From: Blastocatellia bacterium
GTDB lineage: Bacteria > Acidobacteriota > Blastocatellia > HR10 > J050
Direction: 5' to 3'
Assembly (NCBI GenBank): GCA_025054955.1
Contig: JANWZE010000104.1
Span: forward strand, 1 to 35,825
Length of the DNA stretch: 35,825 nt
Positions within the stretch are counted from its first letter, which is position 1. Each line of letters opens with the position of its first letter. This document shows, one piece after another, positions 3,153 to 12,864 of the stretch. The notes under the pieces were generated by a model. The model worked only from the letters and a program-made list of their open reading frames with translations, searched no databases and was not told the origin of the DNA. The translations under genes and the position numbers were made by a program.

Positions 3153-3806
3153 TTACAATTGCGACTCGTGCTCAAGAGCGAATTTCATCAGGGCGTGGCT
3201 GCCCTGTAGCTCCAGTTTGAGGCAGATATTCTTCCGGTGAGTGCGGACCGTGTGAGGGCTGATGTACAACAGCTCAGCAATCTCTTTGCTGGTTTTGTAT
3301 TCGGCGATGAGCTTGAGGATCTGGCGCTCGGTGGGCGTCAGCAGATCAAGACTGAGGCGGGGCTTGGCGGGCAGCGATGACGGTCGCCGTCGGCCCACCA
3401 GATACGAGGTCAACGCTGGGCTGGTGTAATGCTGTCCTGCCATCACAGCTCGGATGCTACTGACAATGTCGGTGACGGCGCTGTCTTTGAGCACGTAACC
3501 CTTGGCCCCCAGAGCTAACGCTTCGTTGAAAAAGTCTTCTTCGCTGTGCACGGTGAGGAAGATGATCTGGACGGCGAGGTGTTGTTTTTGGAGCGCGCGC
3601 GCCACGCTGAAACCATCCATCTGCGGCATGTCAATATCAAGGATGACAATCGCCGGCCGCAGCGCGGCAATCTGTTCCAGCGCCGCCTGACCATCGCCCA
3701 CTTCTGCCACCACCTTCAAGTTTGACTCGCGTTCAATGACCTGCCGCAAGCCTTGACGAAAGATCGGGTGATCATCGGCAATGAGCAATCGAATTTCATT
3801 GAACAT
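3153..3806 (-). CDS. NarL/FixJ-family response regulator
   Basis: A 217-aa two-domain regulator. The receiver occupies roughly residues 4-120, with acidic pair Asp11-Asp12, phospho-acceptor Asp57 in VILDIDMPQMDG and Lys in GYVLKDS. A LuxR-type helix-turn-helix follows at about 148-210, with LTPTERQILKLIAEYKTSKE, then the recognition helix in SPHTVRTHRKNI. I use the ATG at 3806, which has AAGG 5 nt upstream; an ATG three codons earlier at 3815 is the alternative. Either way the gene overlaps the 3' end of the histidine kinase gene by 11-20 nt, so the two are translationally coupled and almost surely cognate partners. It should bind DNA as a dimer after phosphorylation; target promoters are unknown. 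Confidence 0.93.
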   Translation of the reverse strand: MFNEIRLLIADDHPIFRQGLRQVIERESNLKVVAEVGDGQAALEQIAALRPAIVILDIDMPQMDGFSVARALQKQHLAVQIIFLTVHSEEDFFNEALALGAKGYVLKDSAVTDIVSSIRAVMAGQHYTSPALTSYLVGRRRPSSLPAKPRLSLDLLTPTERQILKLIAEYKTSKEIAELLYISPHTVRTHRKNICLKLELQGSHALMKFALEHESQL

Positions 3807-6800
3807 AGCATCCATCCTTCAAGGCCACTCGGAGGGTGACCGTCGTGCCCTGGCCCGGAGCCGATTGAATGAGCGGACTAGCGCCCAGAATGCGCGCGCG
3901 CTCCTTCATGCCAATCCAGCCGAATCCGCCGCCCTCATCTCCGGGCAGGTCAGCCGTGCATCCCTTGCCATTGTCTTGAACCACGATCTCCATGAACTGC
4001 CCGTCTTTCTTAATCATCACTTTCACTTCGGTCGCTTCCGCGTGCTTGACGACGTTACTGAGACTCTCCTGGACGATGCGGTAAAAGTGAATCTCCAACT
4101 CGGGCGGCAACACCCCATCAATCGGATCGAGCTCGGTCGTAATGCTCAGCCTGTTGGAACTGGCCACGTTGCGGATCACTGCTTCAATGGCTTTGGTCAA
4201 GCCGAGGCGATCAATCTGGAAAGGACGCAGATCATACGCGATCTGTCTCACTTCAGCGAGGGCTTGGCTGGCGGCCTCAGCAATCTCTTCCATCTGCTCG
4301 AAGGCGTGTTCTGAATTTTCAGGCGTTTGCAAGCTGTGCAACGCCCGGTTCTTGATGATGACCAGGCTTTGACTGAGGCTGTCGTGCAGTTCCGAGGCAA
4401 TGCGTTTGCGCTCATGCTCCTGCATCTCGATCAGACGCCGCGAAAATTCTTCGTGCGCCGCCTTCGCCCGCTTCAGTTGCGAGACCCGCCGATGATAGAT
4501 CAGCAGGACCAGGCCTCCCACGCCCAAGACCGTGAGCGACACAAACCACCACGCCTGCCAGAATGGAGGCAAGAGCACAAACTGGATGCTCGCGCCGTCC
4601 AGATTCCACACGCCGTCATTGTTCATCGCAATCACTCTGAACCGATACTGACCCGGCGGCAGGTGGGTGTAGTACGCCGTGCGCCGCGTGCCTGCCTCCA
4701 CCCAAGTATCATCGTAGCCTTCCAGTTGGTACTTGAAGCGCACTTTTTCCGGCGCGGTGAAACATAGGCCCGTGTAGTGAACCTCAAAGTCTTTCTGGTT
4801 CGGCGCGATTTCAACCGTTTGTCCAAGATCAACCGAGATCTTATCAGCCAACATCTGCTCGATATGTATAGGCGGGGGTAATGGGTTGCCGACGCTTGGG
4901 TCCACGACGACGACGCCTTTGATGGTGGGGAACCAGAGCTTGCCATCCCGCGTCTTCCACCCGGCCGGTTGAGCGCCGCCATTACACTCGCTGATCGCCA
5001 TGCCATCACCCGTGCCATAAGAAATCGAAGTGACGGCCTTGATCTTCCCATCGGCCAGATCGTTCAACTCGCGCCGGTAGACGCGATAGATGCCTCGGTT
5101 GCAACTCATCCAGAAGTAGCCGCGATCATCTTCCAGAATCCTCGACACGATGTTGTCAAACAATCCATTCTTGGCGGTGATCGGCGTGAATGCTCCGTTT
5201 TTGAACCGGTTCAACCCGCCGCCGTAGGTGCCGATCCAGAGCGCGCCGTCAGCAGCTTCATAGATGTCCCGGATGTAATTGTGTGACAGGCCATTTTCAG
5301 TTGTATAGTTTGTAAACTGGCCATCTTTCAAACGACTGAGTCCGCCCGTCGTGCCGATCCAGAGCGCGCCTTGACGGTCTTGCGTGATGACCCGCACATC
5401 GCTGCAGACCAATCCGTCTGCCACACGATAGTGAGTCATTTCACCATCCTTCAGTTGGTAGAGCCCGCCGGGGTTTCCGGGCGCATTGCCCTTGAGTGTC
5501 CCGATCCAAACGGCTCCCTGTTGGTCTTCGTAGATCGCCATGACGGGGACATCCACAAACCGCTCCAAGCTCGTCAGTCGTCCCTCTCGATACAGGTGAA
5601 GCCCCAGGTAATCGCCAATCCAGAGACTGCCATCGCGTGCTCGTCGTAGCGCCCATGGTCCGATGAGCGTGCGGCGTCCCTGGAGGTTGTAGGCATAGAG
5701 GTTGTGGACAGTGAACGTCCCATTCTGGAACTGGAACAACCCCCCAGACATGGAACCGAGCCATACCTTCCCATCCACGTCTTCCGTCACGGGGACAAAA
5801 CTGTTGTCAGAAAGTCCATCAACCTGCGTGTAAGCCGTCAATTGTCCCGGCCTGAATCGGTGCAGCCCTTTCCCATCCGTGCCGATCCAGAGGTTTCCTT
5901 CGCGGTCCACGAGCAATGCGCGCAGGCGTGGTATCTGATCAATCAAGCGCGTGAGTGCCCCGATCTCTTGCTCCATAACGATCCGCCCATCCTCAAACCG
6001 GGCCACACCCTGCGGCGTTAGGAAGCGGATGTTTCCCTCACGATCCTGAAAGACGCGAAGGACGAGGTCACTGCGCACGTCCTGCGCCGATGACAAGAGG
6101 TGGCGGGTGACGGTCGTCAATACGCCCGCGCGGTACCGGAAGAGTCCCCGCGTGGTGGCGATCCAGAGGCTGCCGTCCGGCCCTGCGCCCTGATTCAAAA
6201 TCCGTCCGGGACCATCGCCGATAATGGTTGTTGTAGTCATCCTGTTCCCGTCAAATCGCATCACGGCGCGATCGGAGGAAAACCAGAGGTGACCGTTCGA
6301 CTCCTCTTGGATGCATTTGATCGTCTGGGTTGGAAAACCATCCGCCGATCTGTCAGTGGTCAGCGCCCCGTGCGCGTAGCGCGTCAGCCCGCCCGGCTCC
6401 GTCCCAATCCACAGTGTTCCGTCACGGTCCTCACCAATCGCCCACACCAGATTGCTCGGCAATCCGTTTTCTACTGTGTAGGTGGTGAATCGGCCTTGTG
6501 CATAGCGGGTCAGCCCGCCATTCTCTGTGCCAATCCATAAGATTCCGGCTCGATCTTCAAACAGCGTGACGATCCGGCTGCTTCGTAATCCCGGACTGGT
6601 GGTGGCATCGAAGATGGTGAACTTCATTCCGTCGAAACGCGCCAGCCCGCCGAATGTGCCAAGCCAGAGGTAGCCATCACGGGTTTGCACAATGCTGGTG
6701 ACAGAATTTTGCGGCAGTCCATCTTCGGTGGTCCAAGCCTGATGCAGAGCAGGTGGCCCTTGTGGTTGGGATGCAGCAGCCGAGGCCGATCCTTGACCAG

Positions 6801-6876
6801 CCGCAAGCCACCATATCAGCATTGCCAGAGCAACACCCTGTACGCTACAACCACCGCTGCTCGTCGTCCAATTCAC
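3796..6876 (-). CDS. Beta-propeller sensor histidine kinase
   Basis: A 1026-aa one-piece sensor. A signal peptide of about 33 residues is followed by some fourteen two-component-regulator-propeller repeats, each with a W-x-G-T type strand (for example LWIGTENGG, LWIGTTGG), which would form two seven-bladed periplasmic propellers. Next come a Y_Y_Y-like beta-sandwich (about residues 680-780), one membrane helix (WWFVSLTVLGVGGLVLL), a HisKA_3 dimerisation helix with the phospho-His near 831 in ELHDSLSQ, and a HATPase domain with N box QESLSNVVKHAE, G1 DNGKG and GFGWIGMKERA. This is the NarX/LiaS-like class that pairs with NarL-type regulators, encoded by the overlapping next gene. The start codon is GTG, with no strong ribosome-binding site; an ATG 18 codons later is possible. 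The ligand is unknown. Confidence 0.93.
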   Translation of the reverse strand: MNWTTSSGGCSVQGVALAMLIWWLAAGQGSASAAASQPQGPPALHQAWTTEDGLPQNSVTSIVQTRDGYLWLGTFGGLARFDGMKFTIFDATTSPGLRSSRIVTLFEDRAGILWIGTENGGLTRYAQGRFTTYTVENGLPSNLVWAIGEDRDGTLWIGTEPGGLTRYAHGALTTDRSADGFPTQTIKCIQEESNGHLWFSSDRAVMRFDGNRMTTTTIIGDGPGRILNQGAGPDGSLWIATTRGLFRYRAGVLTTVTRHLLSSAQDVRSDLVLRVFQDREGNIRFLTPQGVARFEDGRIVMEQEIGALTRLIDQIPRLRALLVDREGNLWIGTDGKGLHRFRPGQLTAYTQVDGLSDNSFVPVTEDVDGKVWLGSMSGGLFQFQNGTFTVHNLYAYNLQGRRTLIGPWALRRARDGSLWIGDYLGLHLYREGRLTSLERFVDVPVMAIYEDQQGAVWIGTLKGNAPGNPGGLYQLKDGEMTHYRVADGLVCSDVRVITQDRQGALWIGTTGGLSRLKDGQFTNYTTENGLSHNYIRDIYEAADGALWIGTYGGGLNRFKNGAFTPITAKNGLFDNIVSRILEDDRGYFWMSCNRGIYRVYRRELNDLADGKIKAVTSISYGTGDGMAISECNGGAQPAGWKTRDGKLWFPTIKGVVVVDPSVGNPLPPPIHIEQMLADKISVDLGQTVEIAPNQKDFEVHYTGLCFTAPEKVRFKYQLEGYDDTWVEAGTRRTAYYTHLPPGQYRFRVIAMNNDGVWNLDGASIQFVLLPPFWQAWWFVSLTVLGVGGLVLLIYHRRVSQLKRAKAAHEEFSRRLIEMQEHERKRIASELHDSLSQSLVIIKNRALHSLQTPENSEHAFEQMEEIAEAASQALAEVRQIAYDLRPFQIDRLGLTKAIEAVIRNVASSNRLSITTELDPIDGVLPPELEIHFYRIVQESLSNVVKHAEATEVKVMIKKDGQFMEIVVQDNGKGCTADLPGDEGGGFGWIGMKERARILGASPLIQSAPGQGTTVTLRVALKDGCYVQ

Positions 6877-8558: not shown

Positions 8559-9644
8559 CTAATAGCGCAAAATCAACGCCACGCGCTGATGAGCCTGCAA
8601 TGCGCCATTGTCAACGAACACAACCCGTCCGTGTTTGCTCAACACGGTTTGTACTAATTCATCCACCGCGTCATCCAGGACATCTGAGGAGGTCACGTTC
8701 TCAGCGGGAATCAGGTACAAGCCGGTGGCATCGGTGCGGGCGGGATAATGAAAATCTTCTTCAACCAGCAACGTCTGGCCGCGCCCTTCGTGAGCGAGTC
8801 GCCAGACTTCCCCAATGCCGGAGACATAGCGTTGCGTGCTAACCGCTACGGCTAGCTCATCCAAAGCTTTTCGCTTTTCCATCTCCAGTTCGTTCCTGAT
8901 CAGCGGCCAGACCAGTTCAGCCAGCTTCGTTGGCGGTAGGTCCTGATAGTGCCCCGTCAACGTCGCGCGAATCATTCGTGTGTTGGTTGAGACCTCATCG
9001 AACAGGCTCAGCGCGCGTTTGGTTCCAACCACCACGGCGGGCAGCGCTTCCGCATTGAGAAGCTGTCCGAAAGCCGTATCCACACGACGCAGGAATTGAC
9101 GATACCGTTCATCGCGATGCTTTGACTTCTCATTCCCGAAATTGCTCGGCAGCGGCTTCGTCCAACCAAGTTGTTCAAGATTCATCGGAAATTCGCCGCC
9201 AATGACTTCCAGCAGTGTGTCACGGACGCCCTTGTAAACGCGCGTCCCCTTGGGGCTCAGCACCAGCACCCAGTAACGTGGCGTTCGGTTCAGCATCGCG
9301 ATCAGATCGCGTATGGCAAACGTTTCGTCAACGACCACCTGCTCTTTGAGCGGAAACGGCACGTAGTAGAGATTGGCGTAATCGCGATTGACAAACAAAG
9401 CCAGCCCATCCAGCGTCCGGTGATAATCAATCTGCGCGACCAGCTCCTCTAGCTTCTTGAGCAAGGGCTCGACGTCCGGTTTGGCACATTCTGCAAGCAG
9501 CCGATGGGTAGCTTGTGTCACCAGATTTTTAACTCGGATCGGGTCCTGGCGCCCTTCGACCGCATTGCGGTGGGTTGGCACCAAGATGGATACAGCCGGA
9601 TAGCCGCGAATGGATTGGAGACGTTGAATGTCTTTGCGATTCAT
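8559..9644 (-). CDS. baeRF family protein (eRF1-like, family 3 type)
   Basis: The 361-aa protein resembles the bacterial archaeo-eukaryotic release factor group, probably family 3. It shows SILVPTHRNAVEGRQDPIRV near residues 20-39, an LDGLALFVNRDYANLYYVPF segment, a PRYWVLVLSPKGTRVYKG strand pair, and a C-terminal Rossmann-like end with VVFVDNGALQAHQRVALILRY. Known members are cytoplasmic and are thought to act on ribosomes or in stress; the biochemical role is unsettled. The ATG at 9644 has AAGGAGG with a 9-nt spacer; the ATG at 9653 lies directly on the ribosome-binding site and is unlikely. A good promoter lies about 150 nt upstream, and a pair of stem-loops follows the stop. Confidence 0.8.
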   Translation of the reverse strand: MNRKDIQRLQSIRGYPAVSILVPTHRNAVEGRQDPIRVKNLVTQATHRLLAECAKPDVEPLLKKLEELVAQIDYHRTLDGLALFVNRDYANLYYVPFPLKEQVVVDETFAIRDLIAMLNRTPRYWVLVLSPKGTRVYKGVRDTLLEVIGGEFPMNLEQLGWTKPLPSNFGNEKSKHRDERYRQFLRRVDTAFGQLLNAEALPAVVVGTKRALSLFDEVSTNTRMIRATLTGHYQDLPPTKLAELVWPLIRNELEMEKRKALDELAVAVSTQRYVSGIGEVWRLAHEGRGQTLLVEEDFHYPARTDATGLYLIPAENVTSSDVLDDAVDELVQTVLSKHGRVVFVDNGALQAHQRVALILRY

Positions 9645-10115
9645 CGTGTGCATCCTCCTTGTCGTAACGGTTACACATAGGCCCCAGTGGGAGCCTTCCT
9701 TGAGGGAGGTCAATGCGATTGTCTGCGCGTGAACATCTCATCATGATGTCCCTCATGGGCGGGCCCCAACGAGCCATCAACAGGCAGCTTTCAACTATAC
9801 ACACCATGCTTTTTTATTCAAGGGCAAACACTATGCCATCGGGCGTCGCCTCCTGGCTCCGCGCAAGTGATAGGCGATCAGTCCATTGAATCGGCAGGAC
9901 GGAATGGTGGTCGGGTAGCCTTGGGCAAGCTCACGCAACGGCGGGGTGTTTTCGCGCGATGGGCGCTCCCGATGGATGGGCGCCGGTTGACCCGCTGCGC
10001 CATCTGCCGCGGTTGCCGCAAGGTTTTTGTGGGCTAATGCTATGTTGAAAGAGGCATGAGTGTCTGCAAACAGACAATGCCATCAGCGCAACCACGATCA
10101 GCCGGGTCAGGGAAG
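9645..10115. other. Gene-free stretch between cfa and the baeRF gene
   Basis: The right half, next to the cfa stop, shows no convincing coding frame, repeat or hairpin. The left half carries the promoter and a leader of about 140 nt for the baeRF gene, including a CATCATGATG palindrome at 9738-9747. Confidence 0.5.
9794..9821 (-). promoter_or_regulatory. Putative promoter of the baeRF gene
   Basis: On the minus strand TTGAAT (9816-9821) and TATAGT (9794-9799) are separated by 16 nt, in an AT-rich patch that stands out from its surroundings. The predicted transcript begins near 9787, giving a leader of about 140 nt before the ATG. Confidence 0.5.
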
Positions 10116-11348
10116 TTACCTCGTGCTTATCAATGAGGGTGATACTTCCCGATTCAATGCCTCGACATACAGATGCTCGCGCGTCCAGGGCAAAGCATTA
10201 TTCAACCCGTTGGTGAACGTGATCTGGTAGAGTCGCAGATTGCCGTAGCGGAAACCTGCTTCGGCCGAGTTCAAAAACATCCGCCACATGCGGACGAATC
10301 GCGCGTCAAACATGGCTTCAATCTCGGCGGCATGCGCTTCAAATCGCTGTCGCCACTGACGCAGCGTTTCACTGTAATGCAGCCGCAGGTTCTCTACGTC
10401 AATAGGGACGAGCCCGGCTTTTCCCATCTCTCGTAAGATTTCGTCAAGCAAGGGCAGGTACGCGCCGGGGAAAATGTACTTCATCGTCCAGGGATCGCCA
10501 GCCGAAGGGCGATCCTTGCCGATTGTATGAAGAAGCCCAAGGCCGCCTGGCTTGAGCAAGGCGCGCGCCTGAGCCATAAACGTGGGGATGAATTGTTTGC
10601 CGACATGCTCAAACATGCCGATGGAAACCAGCTTGTCAAATTGTCCTGACAGTTGCCGGTAATCTTGGCGCTCAATCCTGATGAACTGCTCCAGATGCTC
10701 GCGTGCGACGGTTGCGCGCGCCCACTCCACCTGGGGCTGTGACAATGTGCAGCCGACGCCTCTGACGCCATAGTGGCGAGCGGCGTACATCAACATCCCG
10801 CCCCAGCCGCAACCAATGTCCACCAGCGTGTCGCCAAGCTGAAGTTGGAGCTTACGGCAAATGTGCTCGTACTTTTGCTGCTGCGCTTGCTCCAGTGTGT
10901 CGTCGGGCCGCCGGAAGTAAGCGCACGAATAGGTCATGCTTTCATCAAGCCAGAGTCGGTAAAACTCGTTGCCTCGATCATAGTGATAAGCGATATTGCG
11001 CGGCGCGCGCCGTAACGTGTTGCGAGAGGTCACTGCGTGCCACAACATGCGCAATGCGACGTGCCATGGCAATTTAAGATTTTGGATACGCGGGTCCAGC
11101 CCGAGACGAATCAATGGCTGCCAGTCGCCCTCTACCGTGATGTGGCCTGCCATGTACTCTTCGCCGAATCCAAGCGAACCTTCGCTGAGCGTCCGCTTCA
11201 ACGCGCGTTCGGTTTCAAATCCCAGCACGAAAGCTGGCTCTTCTTCGCCGATGCGGAGCCGCTCGCCATCCCAGAATCGCACCTCGCATGAGACAAGCGA
11301 GCCATTGTCGGTGACCGCCTGCAGAAGCTGCTGGAAAACTCGTTTCAT
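10116..11348 (-). CDS. cfa: Cyclopropane-fatty-acyl-phospholipid synthase
   Basis: A 410-aa SAM-dependent enzyme that adds a methylene bridge across double bonds of membrane phospholipid acyl chains. The N-terminal lipid-binding part carries LGFGEEYMAGHITVEGDW (about 58-75). The core has IAYHYDRGNEFYRLWLD, the YSCAYF segment with the conserved active-site Cys, the SAM-binding VDIGCGWGG, the SIGMFEHVG segment with its conserved Glu, the LLHTIG His, and LRLHYSETLRQW with its conserved Tyr. These are all the residues expected of an active CFA synthase. GGAGG lies about 11 nt before the ATG, and a promoter-like TATAAT lies about 60 nt upstream. It appears to be transcribed alone. In other bacteria the enzyme works in stationary phase or under acid stress. 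Confidence 0.95.
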   Translation of the reverse strand: MKRVFQQLLQAVTDNGSLVSCEVRFWDGERLRIGEEEPAFVLGFETERALKRTLSEGSLGFGEEYMAGHITVEGDWQPLIRLGLDPRIQNLKLPWHVALRMLWHAVTSRNTLRRAPRNIAYHYDRGNEFYRLWLDESMTYSCAYFRRPDDTLEQAQQQKYEHICRKLQLQLGDTLVDIGCGWGGMLMYAARHYGVRGVGCTLSQPQVEWARATVAREHLEQFIRIERQDYRQLSGQFDKLVSIGMFEHVGKQFIPTFMAQARALLKPGGLGLLHTIGKDRPSAGDPWTMKYIFPGAYLPLLDEILREMGKAGLVPIDVENLRLHYSETLRQWRQRFEAHAAEIEAMFDARFVRMWRMFLNSAEAGFRYGNLRLYQITFTNGLNNALPWTREHLYVEALNREVSPSLISTR

Positions 11349-11410
11349 GGCTGATCAGCCTCCTTACAAGGATCTGTGTGATTGTCTGCCGGTCGTTTGC
11401 CGCCGCGCCC

Positions 11411-11440
11411 ATTATAGCGGATTGCCGGCGGCCAATCCAA
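11411..11440 (-). promoter_or_regulatory. Putative cfa promoter
   Basis: A perfect TATAAT (11411-11416, minus strand) lies about 60 nt before the cfa ATG. A weak TTGGAT (11435-11440) stands 18 nt further upstream. The -10 is convincing, the -35 is not. Confidence 0.45.
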
Positions 11441-11575
11441 ACTTTATTGATTCGGCTCGCTTGATTCCGCAACCGCCTGGTTGCTTCTGCAACCGCGCTC
11501 TCTTCGCATCCGGCCATCGCCACTGGCAATAGGCCTCGTTGGGAACGATTGCCGGCTCGCACAACAGAGGCATGC

Positions 11576-11708
11576 GCCGTCGCCACAACCCGCCATCGCA
11601 CTAGCCGCCGTCACAACAGCCGCTATCGCAACCGATCAACCGAATTTAACGGCGCACATCCGCTAGAATCACACTAACCGCTGTCACAACAGCCGCCGTC
11701 ACAACAGC
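11576..11708 (+). repeat. Degenerate repeats around GTCACAACAGC
   Basis: The 11-mer GTCACAACAGC occurs exactly at 11610-11620, 11683-11693 and 11698-11708. A diverged form reading GTCGCCACAACCC is near 11579, and related CCGCCATCGCA or CCGCTATCGCA runs lie between. Spacing is irregular (73 and 15 nt), so this is a decayed simple repeat rather than an array with spacers. Confidence 0.5.
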
Positions 11709-11739: not shown

Positions 11740-12429
11740 TTAGCTTCGGTTCTGCTCGAGGAATTCCCGTGTGAACTGGTTCCAGGTTTCGTCGTCCATA
11801 AGTTCGAGAACGCCGTCGGCCAGTTGACCGCCATCTTGAAGCACGTGCCCCAGCGCCACTGTAGCCATCGGTCGAGCGGCAAAGAATTCCTGGATGCGTC
11901 GCCATTCACCTTCCAACCATGTCCAGGCCTCTTCAGCGATCCTCAACTGTTTCAGGTCACGAGCCAGATGATGTGGCCTGATGTGGCAGACCCAGCCGGC
12001 TCGATAGGGGTCTTCTCGGATGACCTGTGGAGAGCGGTTCAGGTCGTGATTGACGGCATGCACCACACCATCAATAGGAGACCTGAATGTGGCCGCTCGT
12101 GCCCCTTGGCGAATGGTGAACAGCGGATCGCCACGATGGACCTCCTGCCCGTTGGCAGGCAATTCAATGGCGTCAATGCGACCGATCAGGCGTTGTGTCA
12201 CATCATCCATGCCAACCTGCGCCCAGCCCAACCGATCCACGTTGACCCAGGTGTGGCCGGCATCGAAGAAGACGCCTGCCGGCGCCATCGCCTCGAAGGC
12301 GAACGTGGGCACAGCTTCTGGCGTCGCCGACTGAAGGGCCGGCGCTCGCTTTTTCGCTTCATTCCACTGCACAATCGAATCAATCATGATGAAAGCGACA
12401 ATCGTTAAAATGACAAAGATAGCAACCAT
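11740..12429 (-). CDS. Membrane-anchored GcvH-like protein lacking the lipoyl lysine
   Basis: The 229-aa protein starts with one membrane helix (residues 1-20), then a segment matching glycine-cleavage H protein: GHTWVNVDRLGWAQVGMDD (59-76), RGDPLFTIRQG (99-109), FRSPIDGVVHAVNHDL (115-130) and REDPYRAGWVCHIRP (138-152). In true H proteins a lysine about eight residues before the SPxxG motif carries lipoate. Here that place holds Ala-Arg, and there is no lysine between residues 28 and 159. The domain therefore cannot be lipoylated in the usual way and is probably structural or binding. A strong GGAAGGAGGTGA ribosome-binding site lies inside the 3' end of the preceding gene, 3 nt away, so the two form an operon. 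Confidence 0.8.
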   Translation of the reverse strand: MVAIFVILTIVAFIMIDSIVQWNEAKKRAPALQSATPEAVPTFAFEAMAPAGVFFDAGHTWVNVDRLGWAQVGMDDVTQRLIGRIDAIELPANGQEVHRGDPLFTIRQGARAATFRSPIDGVVHAVNHDLNRSPQVIREDPYRAGWVCHIRPHHLARDLKQLRIAEEAWTWLEGEWRRIQEFFAARPMATVALGHVLQDGGQLADGVLELMDDETWNQFTREFLEQNRS

Positions 12430-12432
12430 ACT

Positions 12433-12864
12433 TCACCTCCTTCCGCCCGGCTCACGACGGACGTCGCCATGTTGGCTTGGCGTCTGTTCAGATGCGCGGA
12501 CGGTGGATAAGAATTTGTCAAGAATTGACTGCAACCGACGAGCATCAATCCAATGACCAGCCTCTGTAACAGGTGTCCCTCCATCCTGTAACGTGATGCC
12601 AACCTCTGCGCTGGCGCCGCTCGTCAACCGACGCAATTCTTCAATCAACGTCTCGATAGCCACTGGATCAAATGGCGCACGCTGAGCCGGCGATGCGCCC
12701 TGCTGTCCTCGCATGACTTGATCAAAGGCGCAATGCTCGCAGTCGTAGGCCTGGTCGCAGAGCTTGTAATCAACGACCTTGGCCAGCATCCACACGCACT
12801 TGAGCAGATGCTCCGTCGGCAGCGCGTCCGGATCGTAAGCTCGGTTGTGCGCATCGTTCATCAT
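12433..12864 (-). CDS. Small four-cysteine protein, partner of the GcvH-like protein
   Basis: The 143-aa protein has a cysteine-rich N-terminus: CVWMLAKVVDYKLCDQAYDC and CEHCAFDQVMRG give Cys23, Cys36, Cys42 and Cys45, spaced C-x12-C-x5-C-x2-C. This could hold a metal or Fe-S centre. I recall a similar CVWM...C...DC..C.FD motif at the head of longer GcvH-domain proteins in other phyla; if so, one protein there is split into two genes here. The C-terminal part (65-143) is polar and unrecognised. AGGAG lies about 7 nt before the ATG at 12864; a second ATG follows at once. The GcvH-like gene starts 3 nt after the stop. There is no signal peptide. Confidence 0.75.
   Translation of the reverse strand: MMNDAHNRAYDPDALPTEHLLKCVWMLAKVVDYKLCDQAYDCEHCAFDQVMRGQQGASPAQRAPFDPVAIETLIEELRRLTSGASAEVGITLQDGGTPVTEAGHWIDARRLQSILDKFLSTVRASEQTPSQHGDVRREPGGRR

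Follow-up and report, generated by a model that had tools for sequence, protein, structure and literature searches.

What does a protein with the complete fold of the glycine cleavage H protein (GcvH) do when the lysine that should carry lipoate is missing? The question is raised by a gene on the minus strand (11740..12429) of the window, by which we mean the whole 35,825-nucleotide stretch of contig C104 of a Blastocatellia bacterium. A first-pass annotation of the bare DNA had read its product as a membrane-anchored H-like protein that cannot carry lipoate, lies far from any glycine-cleavage gene and was probably recruited for a different role. The ATG-start reading frame encodes 229 amino acids and contains both H-protein motifs quoted in that annotation (SPIDGVVHAVN and REDPYRAGW). 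Pfam GCV_H matches residues 55-168 with 81.9 bits against a cut-off of 22.2, and the NCBIfam equivalog model for gcvH (TIGR00527) gives 68.3 bits, below its curated cut-off of 115.85. We modelled the protein with AlphaFold2 from an alignment of eight rows; the mean pLDDT was 79.6, with about 90 in the barrel and less than 50 for residues 28-48. All 22 Foldseek matches at E <0.001 were H or H-like proteins, and VIA-align superimposed the model on the bovine H protein (3klr) with a Z score of 18.1 and 1.4 Å over 125 residues. The VIA-align rows, with Z scores up to 18.1, cover residues 52-175, which delimits the GcvH barrel (11905..12276, minus strand). An antisense frame of 230 amino acids runs over the same DNA, and a wrong frame or a chance frame was rejected on the homologues, the model and the profile, which favour the minus strand.

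Two additions flank the barrel. The predicted N-terminal membrane helix (residues 2-27; 12349..12426, minus strand) is a helix in the model and was also recognised by hydropathy and charge count, in agreement with the claimed membrane anchor. The hydrophobic segment ends with Lys26, Lys27 and Arg28, which suggests that the GcvH domain lies on the cytoplasmic side. The C-terminal tail (11740..11904, minus strand), which canonical GcvH does not have, contains LQDGG at 11827-11841 and a final helix. Pfam finds no receiver domain in the window protein. Identity to six order-level orthologues is 51-56%, and the residues invariant among them are kept.

The hairpin that bears lipoate in the GcvH fold is still present, both in the alignments and in the model, where strands 102-108 and 111-116 enclose the former tip Gly109-Ala110-Arg111 (12097..12105, minus strand). 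As the first-pass annotation had stated, the lipoyl-lysine column of alignments with H proteins is occupied by Ala110, followed by Arg111, and no lysine occurs between residues 28 and 159, Lys26 and Lys27 being followed only by Lys160. Among related proteins, lysine is found in this column in 1 of 62 family rows versus 20 of 20 canonical GcvH rows; the family has Gly in 30 rows and Ala in 12, then Glu, Asn, Thr, Ser, Asp, His, Pro and Phe. For these counts, seven repeat loci (L089, L111-L116) were removed, L137, being a piece of a family protein, was relabelled from canonical to family, L096 was counted as canonical instead, and two of the 64 family rows had no residue in the column. Likewise, none of the 62 family rows has the acidic-x-x-Lys motif at the hairpin tip, which every one of the 20 canonical rows has. 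Judged by these alignments, loss of the lipoyl site is a trait of the family and not of a single mutant, and the window protein itself is almost certainly free of lipoate. The proposal that a lysine at another site takes over was rejected for lipoylation, given the lysine-free stretch in the window protein and the lack of the tip motif in all 62 rows. In 22 of the 62 family rows, however, a lysine does occur near the tip, at a distance of up to about six residues, which leaves a small chance of a non-standard modification. Two described families of GcvH relatives were also rejected as a home for the window protein, namely the chlamydial-type not_gcvH (31.8 bits versus a cut-off of 144.05) and GcvH_rel_desulf (31.5 bits versus 150). 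The genome keeps a separate canonical gcvH on another contig, C127, and no glycine-cleavage neighbours were seen in the window, in line with the stated distance from such genes.

Canonical gcvH apart, a search through 199 genomes of Acidobacteriota, the phylum of the window's genome, turned up many relatives of full length that share the membrane helix and the tail, and distant members occur in one Calditrichaeota and one Eisenbacteria record. The family shares His59, Trp61, Gly73, Pro118, Gly121, Asn127, Pro141 and Trp146 (numbering of the window protein) with canonical GcvH. The Asp-Gly of the tail motif DGG is present in 57 of 62 family rows, where all 20 canonical rows have a gap. A tree computed from 98 rows and 103 columns contains a branch with support 91/91 that has the canonical proteins to one side; many other forks are unresolved. 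Plasmid-borne copies of the family were considered and rejected; 117 plasmid records match the window protein, none of them aligning over 80% of the query in one place, and at least 15 of the matches listed resemble canonical gcvH. One genome (G095) has two GcvH proteins about 10 kb apart (L138:212-655 and 10307-10777), which keep the lysine in the unusual contexts EAAKMTG and ESAKWVG and possibly have another use outside glycine cleavage. The standard GcvH family model picks the lipoate-free family up, so annotation may mis-name its members glycine cleavage protein H, and they are easily overlooked.

Directly upstream of the window gene, and ending 3 bases before its start, lies the gene of a 143-residue protein (12433..12864, minus strand) with a four-cysteine module, an LQDGG tail and no barrel, which had been named as a possible binding partner. 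The family profile matches only its tail (residues 99-147 of the longer open reading frame), and its structure model is poor (pLDDT 48.6). The four cysteines (Cys23-Cys36-Cys42-Cys45; 12730..12798, minus strand) and the LQDGG (12577..12591, minus strand) are invariant in 6 of 6 rows of the alignment with fused relatives. Six of seven order-level relatives encode, just upstream of the membrane GcvH gene, a fusion of this four-cysteine module with a second GcvH-like domain; the seventh (G204) is cut by a contig end. By this conserved arrangement, the four-cysteine gene is a true partner of the window gene. Because the six counterparts have a barrel between the four-cysteine module and the tail, the barrel was probably lost in frame in this lineage. 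Four loci (L097, L184, L189 and L192) encode barrel-less membrane peptides of 57-77 residues, each consisting of a helix and an AQDGG tail. They occur in two or three copies per locus beside the Fe-S/NrfD/kinase/archaemetzincin genes described below (L097:10446-10637 and 11383-11616; L184:3694-4309; L189:11511-11900; L192:96-466). That the tail occurs without the barrel, on a helix in these peptides and on a four-cysteine module in the partner, argues that the tail has a job of its own.

The gene neighbourhood gives the family a specific setting. The order-level operon runs from the four-cysteine-GcvH fusion through the membrane GcvH, a 4Fe-4S protein, NrfD with a C-terminal cytochrome c7, a histidine kinase and an NtrC-type regulator to an archaemetzincin. 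Among 41 family loci, some of them cut by contig ends and none of them the window itself, 29 had the Fe-S protein, 29 NrfD, 32 the kinase, 32 the regulator, 24 the archaemetzincin and 14 a c7 match. The corresponding numbers for 19 loci of the canonical gcvH type, which include L155 of G095 with its two GcvH proteins and unusual lysine contexts, were 0, 0, 6, 3, 0 and 0. Neighbours were counted by profile or sequence matches on all open reading frames, simple gene calls being unreliable in the GC-rich stretches. For the Fe-S association, Fisher's test gave p ~8e-8, a value that overstates the case since related genomes are not independent. Fe-S, NrfD and archaemetzincin genes were all absent within the stretch fetched at 9 of the 41 loci. 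At the genome level, 43 of the 47 genomes that have the family also have an NrfD relative (E<=1e-50) versus 23 of 152 counted without the family, although the latter include G124 and G056, which have loci with family members, and G079, which has the DGG mini-peptides. We conclude that the window protein very probably belongs to this Fe-S/NrfD/kinase/regulator/archaemetzincin gene set. The suggested recruitment to another role gains support from this setting, together with the retained fold and the family-wide loss of the lipoyl site.

Further features were seen around these loci. Some Fe-S proteins of the set have Tat-like signals and others none, so that the membrane side is not uniform across the set. 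Genes of 2-oxoacid:ferredoxin oxidoreductase lie near the GcvH-like gene at L047, L048, L051 and L052; a link was rejected, 4 of 41 family loci versus 0 of 19 controls being too few. A gene for a Cys-rich protein adjoins the operon in the opposite direction and is conserved in order-level relatives (L083:11434-12300, L084:12021-12827, L087:11043-11846, L088:7875-8678 and L111:1752-2573); the protein of L083 belongs to C_GCAxxG_C_C (Pfam, 51 bits) and has a weak cytochrome c7 match.

In the window's own genome, the GcvH pair stands alone on C104, between EF-P-like and cyclopropane-synthase-like genes, displaced from a partner set on other contigs. NrfD-c7 is encoded at C71:215-1798, with the Fe-S gene (L109:1795-2556) ahead of it. 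The kinase gene is split between the end of C71 and C16, where the regulator and an archaemetzincin with an intact HELGHTFGLVHC motif come next. Since all five components are found on C71 and C16, the Fe-S/NrfD-c7/kinase/regulator/archaemetzincin set is complete. Elsewhere in the window, the minus strand encodes a baeRF family 3 protein (8559-9713), which also scores above the cut-off as an NCBIfam AOC03_06830-family ribosome hibernation factor, and a large Reg_prop/Y_Y_Y propeller sensor kinase of the HisKA_3 type (3796-6876), unlike the haem kinase of the set.

The kinases of the set have putative haem sensors. At least two haem motifs, CxxCH and CxxxxCH, were found in 41 of 45 kinases and at least one in 44 of 45. 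The sensor of the kinase in the window's genome, which has both motifs, matches PF21563 with 28.2 bits against a cut-off of 27. A direct connection between signalling and the GcvH fold was seen in 17 genomes, in which the GcvH-like protein consists of a membrane helix, a CheY receiver and a GcvH domain (confirmed by Pfam in two representatives) and does not have DGG. The catalytic receiver pattern is kept in 17 of 17 fusions, and the kinase gene adjoins in 17 of 17. At five fusion loci among the 41, the sole match to the NtrC query was weak (6e-24 to 7e-26). The fusions form one clade (support 100/99 in the 98-row tree) and therefore count as one event. As a receiver domain must be cytoplasmic, they agree with the side suggested by the charge pattern of the window protein.

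Given the receiver-GcvH fusion beside a kinase in 17 genomes, we favour, with modest confidence, the reading that the non-lipoylated GcvH fold serves a redox two-component system, itself connected to a quinone-reactive Fe-S/NrfD module, either as an adaptor that binds proteins or as an output module. The GcvH-like protein would be held at the inner membrane face, and NrfD with the Fe-S and c7 parts would exchange electrons with the quinone pool. The histidine kinase would read this redox exchange through its haems, and the signal would pass through the NtrC-type sigma-54 regulator and the GcvH-like proteins, which would bind or release the membrane module. This best explanation starts from what the sequences provide, namely the lost lipoyl site, the retained fold, the gene association, the receiver fusions and the whole set in this genome; from these we infer the cytoplasmic side, the electron path, the direction of signalling and the adaptor role. 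A more specific version is speculative: the haem kinase would read the redox state of the NrfD/Fe-S/c7 module, and the membrane-held, lipoate-free GcvH-like protein would be the effector, acted on by phosphorylation where it is fused to a receiver and otherwise by the archaemetzincin at its xxDGG tail.

The same neighbourhoods would be produced by a plain structural subunit, and gene association and fusion are no proof of signalling. The favoured reading is also weakened by the displaced GcvH pair in the window's genome, the nine loci without Fe-S, NrfD and archaemetzincin genes, the four family genomes without the NrfD relative and the mixed membrane side of the Fe-S proteins. The GcvH-like protein could belong to an NrfD/Fe-S/cytochrome c7 electron-transfer complex as an accessory structural subunit, without any signalling, the kinase and the regulator controlling only the expression of that complex. 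We regard this explanation as possible but rather unlikely. The Fe-S and NrfD genes adjacent at 29 of 41 loci and the NrfD relative in 43 of 47 genomes fit it well, and the weak likeness to the NqrA barrel-sandwich recalls barrel domains that are structural parts of redox complexes. Against it stands the fusion to a receiver with its catalytic residues kept in 17 of 17 cases. Moreover, four genomes (G022, G035, G048 and G101) keep the family without an NrfD relative, and the locus of G022 keeps matches to the kinase, the regulator and the archaemetzincin. We therefore lean slightly towards a part in signalling rather than in an electron-transfer complex only.

The archaemetzincin offers another explanation, in which the GcvH-like proteins and the DGG-tailed membrane peptides are substrates or docking partners of the protease and regulated cleavage of the tail is the output. 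The protease gene occurs in all 30 genomes that encode the DGG-tailed form, in none of the 17 that encode the receiver-fused form and in 30 of 152 others, and its motif is largely intact (HExxH in 34 of 35, the full motif in 33 of 35). The AQDGG membrane peptides, in which the barrel is dispensed with, also fit this idea. However, the receiver fusions, without tail and without protease, are one clade, so that the contrast amounts to one evolutionary event. The protease gene also tends to follow the regulator gene and not the GcvH gene, directly behind the regulator in 21 of 33 cases, probably a lower bound as the best regulator match was sometimes another gene or had a mis-called start. PMC3427221 reports that no activity of the M. 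kandleri archaemetzincin on typical substrates was found and that the related CarG takes part in controlling transcription. We consider cleavage as the output of the system quite improbable, and any action of the archaemetzincin on the tails of GcvH-like proteins doubtful. Among the archaemetzincin loci, L110:2951-3511 encodes a bacterial enzyme whose protease motif is intact and whose gene immediately follows that of an NtrC-type regulator, and several loci fetched from genomes counted without the family have a lone archaemetzincin gene. Finally, that the displaced pair in the window's genome is a decaying remnant, as its separation from the partners and the missing barrel of the four-cysteine gene might suggest, is very hard to reconcile with two open, tightly spaced frames, the conservation relative to the six orthologues and the presence of the rest of the set in the genome.

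If the adaptor reading is correct, a lipoate-carrier fold has given up its cofactor and taken on the task of a switch or adaptor in redox sensing, and such reuse spans Acidobacteriota and at least two other lineages. For archaemetzincin, proteins that combine a membrane helix with an xxDGG tail would be a specific candidate. Were the effector version with archaemetzincin acting on the tail true, this bacterial protease would have a natural substrate, and the GcvH fold would have a part in regulation.

How does this system compare with those already known? The window protein has in common with GcvH (PF01597) the whole barrel fold and the conserved residues, but differs in the absent lipoyl lysine, the membrane helix, the DGG tail and the separate canonical gcvH in the genome. 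LbpA of sHdr sulfur oxidation is likewise a GcvH-like protein in a redox system outside glycine cleavage, as described in PMC6067878, in which all 95 aligned LbpA proteins keep the lipoyl lysine. Unlike LbpA, the family described here has no lipoyl lysine, is membrane-tethered and adjoins NrfD and a kinase; no hdr genes were noticed on reading through its neighbourhoods. Despite the retained fold, the window protein is, on these sequence grounds, not to be filed as either, because it fails the lysine and the equivalog cut-off for GcvH and the lysine for LbpA. The N-terminal barrel-sandwich of NqrA and RnfC is also a lipoate-free barrel in a redox complex, and one family member weakly matches NQRA_N (21.1 bits, below its cut-off). 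In contrast to those proteins, the family keeps the full GcvH fold and sequence, and no NqrA or RnfC context was seen.

The 4Fe-4S protein with 16-17 cysteines beside NrfD, in some loci with cytochrome c7, resembles the quinone-reactive modules of the CISM type, which are HybA/HybB-like. Here GcvH-like proteins, a haem kinase and an archaemetzincin are added, and, unlike in CISM-type systems, an unsystematic reading of the neighbourhoods noticed no molybdenum or hydrogenase catalytic gene. The kinase sensor of the window's genome matches the c-haem sensor domains of the Mcp40H-20 type (PF21563), which in this case form part of a histidine kinase associated with NrfD and GcvH-like proteins. No description of such a gene set was found in the open-access literature, an absence that is weak evidence. 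All the parts come from known families; their combination and the receiver-GcvH fusion look new.
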